Source: Bacillota bacterium (GTDB lineage Bacteria > Bacillota > Limnochordia > Darwinibacteriales > DTU012). Taken from it: a stretch of DNA of 64,000 nucleotides. The translations under genes were made by a program, and so were the position numbers. The stretch spans positions 62,001 through 126,000 of the forward strand of contig DURM01000064.1 of NCBI GenBank assembly GCA_012837335.1. The letters are read 5' to 3'. The notes beneath the pieces were generated by a model. The model worked only from the letters and a program-made list of their open reading frames with translations. It was not told the DNA's origin and made no database searches. Of this stretch, positions 38,411-41,841 are shown piece by piece; the first letter of the stretch is position 1; the number at the start of each line of letters is the position of its first letter.

Positions 38411-38433
38411 CTTCCGATATAGGAGGAATAGGA

Positions 38434-41400
38434 TTGGGATCAGTTTATGTGATTAAACCGGATCGCAGAGATTTCCTAGCGAATTTTTCTCCGGATCCTA
38501 TCACTGAATCCGTTGAGATCAAGCAGATTGAAGTTGATCCGGTCAACCACAGTTGGAAATTCCTGCTTGTTGGCAGGCGGCAGGGAACTGCAGAGTTTTG
38601 GGATCAATTAGCCAAAGAACTGCAGGCTAAAATCCCCCAGGTAAAACAGGTCGAATTCGTTTGGGAAGAACCGGATCCAACCGACGATCTCAGTTATATG
38701 GATCATGTAATTAAAAACTTCACCCCGCCAGTAATCACTGTTGAAGATCAGCCTGACAAACCGGCCAATGGACGGAGAAGATGGGGGAGAAGACGGGCTA
38801 ATCTTGAAGCCGAGATTAATCAGCCGCATATTCCTATTAGAGAGATTGAGATTGAGGAGAACAACATTGCTATTCAAGGTGAGGTTGTCGCTTTTGATAA
38901 ACGCAATCTCCGCAGCGGCAAGGTTTTAGTAACTTTCGATGTTTGGGATCACACCGACTCCATAACCTGCAAATTGTTCTTAGATCCTGAAGATGATGTG
39001 CCCGAAATCCATGTCGGCGAGTGGCTGAAAGTGAAAGGCAATGTCCAGTTTCAAAGTTTTGAACAGGAACTGGCGCTGATGGTTAACCAGTTTAGCCGCG
39101 CTGAGCCACCTGCGCCGCTGATGGATAATGCGTCGAAGAAGCGGGTTGAACTCCATCTGCATACAAAAATGAGCGGATTAGACGGAGTACTGGATGTGGA
39201 GGATGCGGTACGGCAGGCGGCTGCATGGGGCCATGCAGCAGTAGCAATTACTGATCATGGTGTTGTGCAGGCCTTTCCATCAGCCTATTTTGCCGGTAAA
39301 AAACACGGCATCAAGATTATCTACGGCCTTGAAGGTTATCTGATTGACCAAGAAAATGATCGGCCTTATCATATTGTGATATTGGCTAAAAACCAGGCCG
39401 GCTTAAAGAATCTTTATAAGCTGGTTTCTTTTTCGCATATAGATTACTTTTACCGCAGGCCGCGCATCCCCCGCAAAGTGCTGGAGGAGCATCGGGAAGG
39501 ATTGATTATCGGAGCAGCCTGCGAGCAGGGCGAAGTTTATCAAGCCTGTTTAAATCGGGATCCCCGCCTGCGGGAGATTGCCAGTTTCTATGATTATCTT
39601 GAAATTCAACCTTTAGGAAACAATGAGTTTTTAATTGGCACAAGCCGCGTAAGCACCACCGAAGATTTGAAAGAAATCAATCGCTTAATCTGCCGAATTG
39701 GGGCAGAGCTCAATATACCGGTTGTGGCTACATGTGACGTGCACTTCCTGCGTCCGGAGGATGCGGTATACCGCACAATCTTACTGCGGGGTCAAGGTTT
39801 TGAGGACGCAGAACGGCAGGCTCCGCTCTATTTCCGGACAACAGAAGAGATGCTGGATGAGTTCAGCTATCTGAGCGAAGAATTGGCGTACGAAGTAGTT
39901 GTGGAGAACTCCAACCGGATTGCCGAGCAAATTGAGGACATTACGCCGATACCCCAAGGTCTGCACCCACCCCATATTCCCGATGCGGAAGAAAAACTGG
40001 AGCAGCTGTGTTACGATACAGCTCGCAAGCTGTATGGTGATCCCCTGCCCCAGCTGGTGGAGGAGCGGCTGAAAAAGGAACTGAAAGCAATTATCGGCAA
40101 TGGTTATGCTGCGCTGTACTGGACAGCTCGTCAGCTGGTGCAGAAATCCGAGTCAGATGGCTACATGGTGGGCTCTCGGGGTTCGGTGGGCTCATCGTTT
40201 GCAGCCTGTATGAGCGGTATTACCGAGGTAAATCCGCTGCCGCCCCATTATCTGTGCCTTGACTGCCACCACCACGAGTTTTTCACTGGCGGTGAAGTGG
40301 GCTCAGGTATCGACCTGCCGCGGAAAGACTGTCCAAACTGCGGCAAGCCGCTGCACAGAGACGGATTTGATATTCCGTTCGAAGTATTTCTTGGATTTGA
40401 TGGTGATAAAGTTCCTGATATCGACTTGAATTTCAGCGGTGAATACCAGGCAACTATTCAGAAGTACACTGAAGAGCTGTTCGGTGAAGACTATGTGTTC
40501 CGGGCAGGAACAGTCGGCACCCTGGCTGATAAAACAGCTTTCGGCTTTGTAAAAAATTACCTGGATGAAACCAACCAAGTTAAACGCAAAGCGGAAATTA
40601 ACCGCATGCTGAAAAAACTTGTGGGAGTCAAGCGCACTACTGGTCAGCATCCAGGTGGAATGATTGTCGTGCCGGATGATATGGAGATTTACGATTTTAC
40701 TCCAATCCAGTACCCAGCCAATGACCCGAAGAGCGGGGTAGTGACAACTCACTTCGAGTTCAGCTACATTCACGACAGCCTTGTCAAACTGGACAACCTC
40801 GGCCACAAAGGACCAACCATGATGCGGATGTTTGAGGAATTTACCGATACACGAGTTACCGAAATCCCCATGGATGATCCGGCCACAATGGCAATCTTTA
40901 GGGGTTTAGAATCCTTAGGCGTTACTGAAGAGCAGATCGGCACTCCCATCGGAACTTTGGGAATTCCCGAGTTCGGCACCGACTTTACCCGCCAGGTTCT
41001 AGAGGATATTCTGCCGACAACTTTTGCCGATTTGGTAGCAATCATGGGATTAACCCACGGAACCGATGTATGGCTGAACAATGCCCAGAATCTGATCCGG
41101 GAGAAAGTCACTGACTTTAAGAATGTTATTGCCTGTCGCGACGATATTATGGTCTATCTGATGCATAAAGGCTTATCTGCAAGCGATGCGTTTCGCATCA
41201 TGGAGCAGGTTCGCAAAGGCAGGGGTCTAAGCGAGGATGACATCCAGCTGATGAAGCAGTTTGATGTGCCTGATTGGTATATCGATTCTTGTTTTAAGAT
41301 TAAGTACATGTTCCCGAAGGCCCACGCTGTTGCCTATGCGTTTACGGCTTATCGCGCGGCATACTATAAGGTGCATCATCCGGCTGCCTTCTACGCTACC

Positions 41401-41841
41401 TTCCTAAGCGTGGAAATCGATTCGGTTAACGCGGATATAATTGTTCAAGGCGAACAGCATATCCGGGATGAGATTGCCGGTATCGAAGCTAAAGGTAATG
41501 ATGCGACCGCAAAAGACGCTGACACAGTCACAATCCTTAAGGCGGTCTTAGAAGCAATCTCAAGAGGGATAGAGTTTCTGCCGGTGGATCTCTACAAGTC
41601 CGATGCTGTGCGGGTGCTTCCGGTCGACGGCAATAAACTGCTTCTACCCCTAGTATCCCTTGACGGGGTAGGTATGAACGCAGCCGCTGCTATTGCTGAA
41701 GCCAGACAAGAGGGAGAGTTTATCTCCATTGAAGATCTGCGCCAGAGAGCCAAAGTGAGCCGCACTGTAATCGAGGCGCTGTCCAATCATGGCTGCTTGG
41801 AAGGGATGTCTGAAACAAACCAATTGAGTTTATTCGGTTAA
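38434..41841 (+). CDS. polC: PolC, DNA polymerase III alpha subunit, lacking the exonuclease domain
   Basis: Replicative polymerase of 1135 residues, about 300 shorter than Bacillus PolC (1437). Order: short N-terminal domain (1-130), OB fold (about 137-222), PHP domain (about 237-440), then the PolC palm, fingers and zinc site (C608, C611, C633, C636). Palm residues are in PDIDLNFSGE (661-670) and GVKRTTGQHPGG is present. In other PolCs a DEDDh proofreading exonuclease interrupts PHP after the YGLE motif; here YGLEGYLIDQ (297-306) runs straight into RPYHIVILAKN (310-320). PHP metal ligands H241, H243, D274, H275, E300, H313, C363, D435, H437 are all present. Start TTG 38434 after AGGAGG. Confidence 0.95.
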   Translation: MGSVYVIKPDRRDFLANFSPDPITESVEIKQIEVDPVNHSWKFLLVGRRQGTAEFWDQLAKELQAKIPQVKQVEFVWEEPDPTDDLSYMDHVIKNFTPPVITVEDQPDKPANGRRRWGRRRANLEAEINQPHIPIREIEIEENNIAIQGEVVAFDKRNLRSGKVLVTFDVWDHTDSITCKLFLDPEDDVPEIHVGEWLKVKGNVQFQSFEQELALMVNQFSRAEPPAPLMDNASKKRVELHLHTKMSGLDGVLDVEDAVRQAAAWGHAAVAITDHGVVQAFPSAYFAGKKHGIKIIYGLEGYLIDQENDRPYHIVILAKNQAGLKNLYKLVSFSHIDYFYRRPRIPRKVLEEHREGLIIGAACEQGEVYQACLNRDPRLREIASFYDYLEIQPLGNNEFLIGTSRVSTTEDLKEINRLICRIGAELNIPVVATCDVHFLRPEDAVYRTILLRGQGFEDAERQAPLYFRTTEEMLDEFSYLSEELAYEVVVENSNRIAEQIEDITPIPQGLHPPHIPDAEEKLEQLCYDTARKLYGDPLPQLVEERLKKELKAIIGNGYAALYWTARQLVQKSESDGYMVGSRGSVGSSFAACMSGITEVNPLPPHYLCLDCHHHEFFTGGEVGSGIDLPRKDCPNCGKPLHRDGFDIPFEVFLGFDGDKVPDIDLNFSGEYQATIQKYTEELFGEDYVFRAGTVGTLADKTAFGFVKNYLDETNQVKRKAEINRMLKKLVGVKRTTGQHPGGMIVVPDDMEIYDFTPIQYPANDPKSGVVTTHFEFSYIHDSLVKLDNLGHKGPTMMRMFEEFTDTRVTEIPMDDPATMAIFRGLESLGVTEEQIGTPIGTLGIPEFGTDFTRQVLEDILPTTFADLVAIMGLTHGTDVWLNNAQNLIREKVTDFKNVIACRDDIMVYLMHKGLSASDAFRIMEQVRKGRGLSEDDIQLMKQFDVPDWYIDSCFKIKYMFPKAHAVAYAFTAYRAAYYKVHHPAAFYATFLSVEIDSVNADIIVQGEQHIRDEIAGIEAKGNDATAKDADTVTILKAVLEAISRGIEFLPVDLYKSDAVRVLPVDGNKLLLPLVSLDGVGMNAAAAIAEARQEGEFISIEDLRQRAKVSRTVIEALSNHGCLEGMSETNQLSLFG

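Follow-up and report, generated by a model that had tools for sequence, protein, structure and literature searches.

What proofreads for a replicase that has lost its proofreading exonuclease? This question is raised by a polC gene in the window, by which we mean the whole stretch of 64,000 nucleotides of Bacillota DNA analyzed here. A sequence-only reading of the window had described the encoded PolC as lacking the DEDDh exonuclease that splits the PHP domain in known PolC proteins. It had named the PHP domain itself, or a separate exonuclease acting in trans, as candidate proofreaders; both remain the candidates. Here, we show that the exonuclease is absent, that its loss is old and has been repeated within the phylum, and that the PHP metal site is kept almost wherever the exonuclease is gone.

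The window encodes an otherwise intact PolC

The window protein is a PolC by score and by layout. It exceeds the cut-offs of two PolC equivalog models (NF001688, 1494.9 bits against 873; TIGR01405, 1369.4 bits against 1043). It has Pfam matches to the OB, PHP, polymerase, finger, and HhH domains and follows the PolC layout: OB domain before the PHP domain, Pol3 core, C-terminal HhH domain, and clamp motif. The features of the gene, all on the + strand, are as follows.

38421..38426, +: Shine-Dalgarno-like AGGAGG ahead of the polC TTG start (read from sequence)
38434..41841, +: polC, complete PolC-type DNA polymerase III alpha without DEDDh domain, 1135 aa, TTG start
38869..39093, +: OB domain, residues 146-220, N-terminal to PHP as is the PolC arrangement (PF01336 match)
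39148..39588, +: PHP domain, uninterrupted, residues 239-385 (Pfam match; one continuous fold in the model)
39154..39162, +: PHP ligands H241 and H243 (sequence/alignment)
39253..39258, +: PHP ligands D274 and H275 (sequence/alignment)
39331..39333, +: PHP ligand E300 (sequence/alignment)
39334..39369, +: 12-residue loop GYLIDQENDRPY, site of the DEDDh insert of about 213 residues in exonuclease-carrying PolCs (alignment)
39370..39372, +: PHP ligand H313 (sequence/alignment)
39520..39522, +: PHP ligand C363 (sequence/alignment)
39736..39738, +: PHP ligand D435, Asn in 22 broken-site PolCs, all with the exonuclease (sequence/alignment)
39742..39744, +: PHP ligand H437 (sequence/alignment)
40255..40341, +: Cys4 cluster C608, C611, C633, C636 (sequence; invariant in the alignment)
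40414..40434, +: polymerase catalytic motif PDIDLNF, residues 661-667 (sequence, alignment)
40792..40794, +: third polymerase aspartate D787, within KLDNLGH, residues 785-791 (sequence, alignment)
41821..41835, +: C-terminal sliding-clamp motif QLSLF, residues 1130-1134 (sequence)

The DEDDh domain is absent from this PolC, and the remainder of the enzyme is intact. As the sequence-only reading had claimed, the PHP domain is a single Pfam match, and E300 and H313 enclose 12 residues (GYLIDQENDRPY), against about 197-217 in exonuclease-carrying PolCs. No RNase_T/DEDDh domain is matched anywhere in the 1135 residues, even at E<=1. All nine PHP ligands (HHDHEHCDH) are filled at exactly the positions it gave, D435 and H437 falling past the end of the Pfam match. 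The polymerase aspartates, the Cys4 cluster, and the clamp motif are all present.

An AlphaFold model of the protein (mean pLDDT 88, from a 31-sequence alignment) has as its best match among solved structures 3F2B, a construct of Geobacillus kaustophilus PolC (TM 0.83/0.94; 52% identity over 1014 structural alignment columns). In both, the PHP domain is closed by a short linker. The exonuclease of 3F2B was removed in the laboratory for crystallization (PMC12592400), unlike the natural loss seen here, and 3F2B further differs from the window PolC in one mutated PHP residue (PMC5636811). That the construct crystallized shows that a PolC without the exonuclease folds.

The region ahead of the OB core is also short: about 145 residues (window:38434-38870), where the median of other PolCs is 239. 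This is common to the order of the window genome and several relatives, and suggests the possible loss of one of the two subdomains that make up the N-terminal domain of PolC.

The exonuclease is missing throughout the order

The same architecture is found across the order. Among 37 genomes sampled from it, 28 have a PolC frame unbroken over the model, and all 28 of these proteins (1125-1190 residues) lack the exonuclease. TIGR01405 matches the PolCs of the order from model position ~376, past the exonuclease segment, and the replacing loop is 12-14 residues in every one read directly, the window's included. Four independent records (L009-L012), 69-77% identical, also lack the domain. The loss is thus clean, as the sequence-only reading had held, and the removal of some 540-600 bases by an assembly or sequencing artifact is refuted by this agreement and is practically impossible.

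In one sister species (L008, contig C120 of G007), polC is broken by an in-frame TAA that leaves an open frame of 845 aa; this is either a sequencing error or a pseudogene. Within the genus of the window genome, synonymous sites are saturated for dN/dS.

PolCs without the exonuclease are common

PolCs of this kind were already known. Timinskas et al. (NAR, online October 2013) reported that 6% of PolCs lack the Exo insertion, that with the exception of a single Thermotogae copy these come exclusively from Clostridia and Negativicutes, and that such proteins make up 16% of PolC+DnaE1 systems (PMC3919608). They share the OB/PHP/Pol3/HhH layout of the window PolC, which belongs with this variant, as the DEDDh insert is a hallmark of typical PolCs. 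The premise that known PolCs all carry the exonuclease therefore does not hold, and the form cannot count as new: it has been on record since 2013, and it is largely true that many close PolCs without the domain had been described before, which the sequence-only reading had named as grounds for refutation.

We find the form to be far commoner than reported. Our phylum sample comprised 250 genomes of >=90% completeness, spread over the group and not weighted by sequencing effort, of which 183 have a PolC. In 72 of the 183, the TIGR01405 match is unbroken and begins at position 1-12, and the exonuclease is present. Of the other 111, 78 are among the matches listed; in one of these, G276, the domain is dead, and another, G106, is located at the edge of a contig. 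Direct reading of 60 of the 78 showed 59 without the domain and one with a dead domain. The 33 beyond the matches listed include the genus of the window genome and at least one fragment that carries the exonuclease (G219). Thus, the exonuclease is missing from at least about 76, and possibly about 105, of the 183 PolC genomes (at least about 41%, possibly about 57%). The gap from the 6% reported in 2013 may be due to the spread of our sample over the group.

The form seen here also differs from the 2013 description in that the genomes are often free of any DEDDh domain, and in that, in the order of the window genome, the N-terminal region is short and the PHP site of the partner DnaE is broken (below). 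Within the literature we searched, coverage of which is incomplete, no later study on the function of exonuclease-less PolCs was found.

The loss is old and has been repeated

PolC trees were built from quick searches with the insert columns excluded; they are unrooted, and midpoint roots serve for drawing. Presence and absence of the exonuclease require 10 state changes on the 79-row tree and nine on the 96-row tree, and in each of two trees at least six changes are forced by well-supported branches. The sequence-only reading had raised the possibility that the exonuclease-less forms are one clade; these forced changes reject a single origin. On the tree, the order of the window genome is joined by its class relatives G052, G274, and G208; as all of these lack the exonuclease, the loss predates the order. 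It is common to the order and the class members examined, and has been repeated several times in the phylum. Close relatives can differ: of L015 and L085, both in Acutalibacteraceae, only one carries the insert. The exonucleases of L085 and L086 were judged live by reading the inserts, as a simple DEDDh regular expression misses both.

Decay of the exonuclease can be followed within one genus. Family f26 is represented by 16 genomes, 13 of which encode a PolC with a live exonuclease of 213 residues. In two genomes of genus g105 (G276, L190; G160, L272), the insert still spans 198 residues but lacks motif I, where LALGTTG or LALATTG replaces DIETTG, along with the other catalytic residues. In a third (G131, L271) the insert is down to 39 aa. 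All three PolCs keep HHDHEHCDH, and all three genomes have no RNase_T domain. Among them, the inserts are 56-71% identical, while the C-terminal part of the PHP domain and the polymerase are 92-93% identical. The dN/dS (NG86) of the insert is 0.30-0.51 in g105 against 0.08-0.11 in pairs with a live exonuclease, the comparisons over 39 codons being noisy; that of the PHP domain is 0.09-0.12 against 0.07-0.10. In g105, the exonuclease died, decayed, and was then deleted, and the PHP domain was under purifying selection throughout.

The reverse history, in which PolC originally had no exonuclease and gained it later, once or by exchange, is highly improbable: the unrooted tree and the short loop of many lineages (median 17 residues across exonuclease-less PolCs) would suit it, but all live inserts sit at one identical place, the two forms are interleaved on the tree, L015 and L085 differ as close relatives, and decay and deletion are directly visible in g105. 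The best explanation of the sequence data is that the window PolC is an ordinary, functional replicase, and that an ancestor of its Bacillota lineage lost the DEDDh exonuclease from the PHP loop.

The PHP metal site is retained

Nearly all PolCs without the exonuclease retain the nine-ligand PHP site. It is full in 96 of 97 complete exonuclease-less PolCs, and the remaining one has D274E. The substitution D435N occurs in 22 PolCs, every one with a DEDDh domain. These 22 are mostly or all from Bacilli and are probably the product of one evolutionary event, so the association of D435N with the exonuclease is a consistent pattern rather than a statistical test. The ligands are also intact in most exonuclease-carrying PolCs outside Bacilli (66 of 88), and retention is therefore not specific to forms without the exonuclease.

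A proofreading PHP domain is known from Mycobacterium tuberculosis. In DnaE1 of this species, nine residues form a metal site like that of PolC, and the enzyme proofreads without a DEDD domain in the polymerase; mutation of D23 or D226 abolishes its PHP exonuclease activity (PMC5636811). From the order of motifs, PolC D435 would correspond to D226. In Geobacillus PolC, a single residue of the PHP site is mutated, and the domain shows no exonuclease activity (PMC5636811). The comparison has its limits: M. tuberculosis DnaE1 is of the DnaE type with a measured activity, whereas the window protein is a PolC known from its sequence, and the loop lining the site is 29 residues in DnaE1 (PMC5636811) against 12 in the window PolC.

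Many genomes lack any DEDDh domain

We scored a genome as DEDDh-free when it had no RNase_T match at E<=1e-3. Among the 78 listed genomes, 28 are DEDDh-free: 27 without the PolC domain and G276 with its dead domain. Together with G131 and G160, at least 30 genomes with an exonuclease-less or dead-exonuclease PolC are thus DEDDh-free; of the 111, at most 34 are of this kind. Six are single-contig assemblies (G051, G055, G129, G157, G199, and G223). Two, G052 and G274, are class relatives of the window genome with an exonuclease-less PolC; in these and the other DEDDh-free genomes, the PHP site of DnaE1 is intact where readable.

In G184, a single-contig genome of the class of the window genome, there is no PolC match at E<=1e-200 and no RNase_T candidate; this bacterium seems to replicate by DnaE alone, without DEDDh.

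Other polymerases and exonucleases in the order

The window genome has three C-family polymerases. Besides PolC, a search recovered two DnaE genes. P0001 (L088; 1026 codons) ends after the OB domain and has all nine PHP ligands (HHDHEHCDH). It is close to the DnaE2 and DnaE1 models but below both cut-offs, and its relatives have Asn at the position matching PolC D435. P0002 (L089:2190-5156, contig C26 of G000) is a DnaE of 988 aa with the broken PHP site NHDHERFRS and no OB domain match. DnaE of this type is present throughout the order (30 loci; L304-L333), and each of the 29 members whose PHP site can be read has a broken one. The region near residue 400 is shortened in the window's P0002. 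P0002 resembles DnaE3 of Bacilli in its degraded PHP, its lack of an OB match, and this short region, but forms a long branch of its own.

As to an exonuclease that might act in trans, the window genome has two proteins with an RNase_T domain, one of them free. In the other (L001; L091:5833-7239), the DEDDh domain lies inside the C-terminal domain of a UvrD-type helicase; related helicase-embedded domains in the class (L137, L143, L146, and L157) form one clade. The free protein is as follows.

L090:7689-8360 (contig C2 of G000), +: P0003, free DEDDh exonuclease, 224 aa, C-terminal zinc-finger-like tail

P0003 has the DEDDh catalytic residues in alignment (PF00929, 100.3 bits) and falls below the dnaQ_proteo cut-off (TIGR01406, 89.5 against 222.7 bits). 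Its family is syntenic and conserved across the order (55-71% identity), is often the sole RNase_T protein of a genome, and is order-specific in the 250-genome sample, where order members match at 1e-114 or better and the next match at 1e-39. Its neighbors, named from sequence, are prenyl synthase and DUF2600-like genes, with a NUDIX/MutT-like gene nearby in 5 of 11 loci; no replication gene lies beside it in the loci examined.

The best match of P0003 outside the order is a PolC exonuclease, which prompted us to consider whether it is the excised PolC domain. The tree does not support this origin: it places P0003 with DinG-type helicase exonucleases (100/96), away from PolC exonucleases and E. 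coli DnaQ. Forcing P0003 to join the PolC exonucleases costs 10.3 log units (p-AU 0.067), which falls short of a firm rejection of excision.

The PHP domain as candidate proofreader

We consider it probable that the PHP domain of PolC proofreads. By analogy with M. tuberculosis DnaE1, it would carry the 3'-5' activity via a trinuclear metal center, which would make the DEDDh domain dispensable. In support of this are the near-universal retention of the ligands in exonuclease-less PolCs, the published effects of PHP mutations in M. tuberculosis DnaE1 and Geobacillus PolC, the natural elimination of every DEDDh domain from at least 30 genomes, the constraint on the PHP domain in g105 while the insert decays, and the folding of 3F2B without its exonuclease. 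Besides the PHP domain of PolC, the window genome has further possible proofreaders in a free DEDDh protein and in the DnaE P0001, whose PHP site is intact. In the order of the window genome, P0003 may supplement the PHP domain in trans.

The main rival, or partner, of PHP proofreading in this order is P0003 itself. It could have been recruited as an epsilon-like subunit that proofreads in trans, with the PHP domain of PolC being structural only. In C-family polymerases, the PHP domain also contributes to structure, and this could account for its constraint even if it has no catalytic function. P0003 is conserved, syntenic, order-specific, and often the only RNase_T protein available, and it occurs together with the broken DnaE PHP site. 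This co-occurrence is a single evolutionary event, so a link between the two is only a hypothesis. Moreover, P0003 groups with DinG-type exonucleases, scores far below the dnaQ_proteo cut-off, and has no replication genes alongside, and the class relatives G052 and G274 manage with an exonuclease-less PolC and no DEDDh domain. We therefore regard proofreading by P0003 in place of the PHP domain as rather unlikely.

A PolC that does not proofread at all, fidelity being left to polymerase selectivity, mismatch repair, and another polymerase, is very unlikely. MutL is present in the window genome, and P0001, with its nine ligands, could be that other polymerase; but the relatives of P0001 have Asn at the D435-equivalent residue, and both the near-universal ligand retention and the strong constraint on the PHP domain after the death of the exonuclease would be difficult to account for if the domain had no role that depends on metal.

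If, as we favor, the PHP domain of PolC proofreads, the order might have rebuilt its proofreading as a whole, with PolC relying on its PHP domain, the partner DnaE losing its PHP site, and a DEDDh protein related to DinG-type exonucleases recruited in the manner of epsilon. This would be a second, independent origin of the E. coli-type layout, here inside a PolC replisome, and we think it quite unlikely. In E. coli Pol III, a DnaE with a dead PHP domain likewise works with a separate DEDDh protein, epsilon. P0003, however, is only a distant homologue of DnaQ, has a zinc-finger-like tail, and is a putative partner only, and the order has PolC in addition.

Over the 2013 report, our analysis adds the frequency of PolCs without the exonuclease, a decay series, and DEDDh-free genomes in which proofreading by PHP can be put to the test. 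In nearly every PolC studied, a DEDDh domain is present that would mask PHP activity. Species that combine an exonuclease-less PolC with a DEDDh-free genome, and genus g105, allow a direct test of PHP proofreading.
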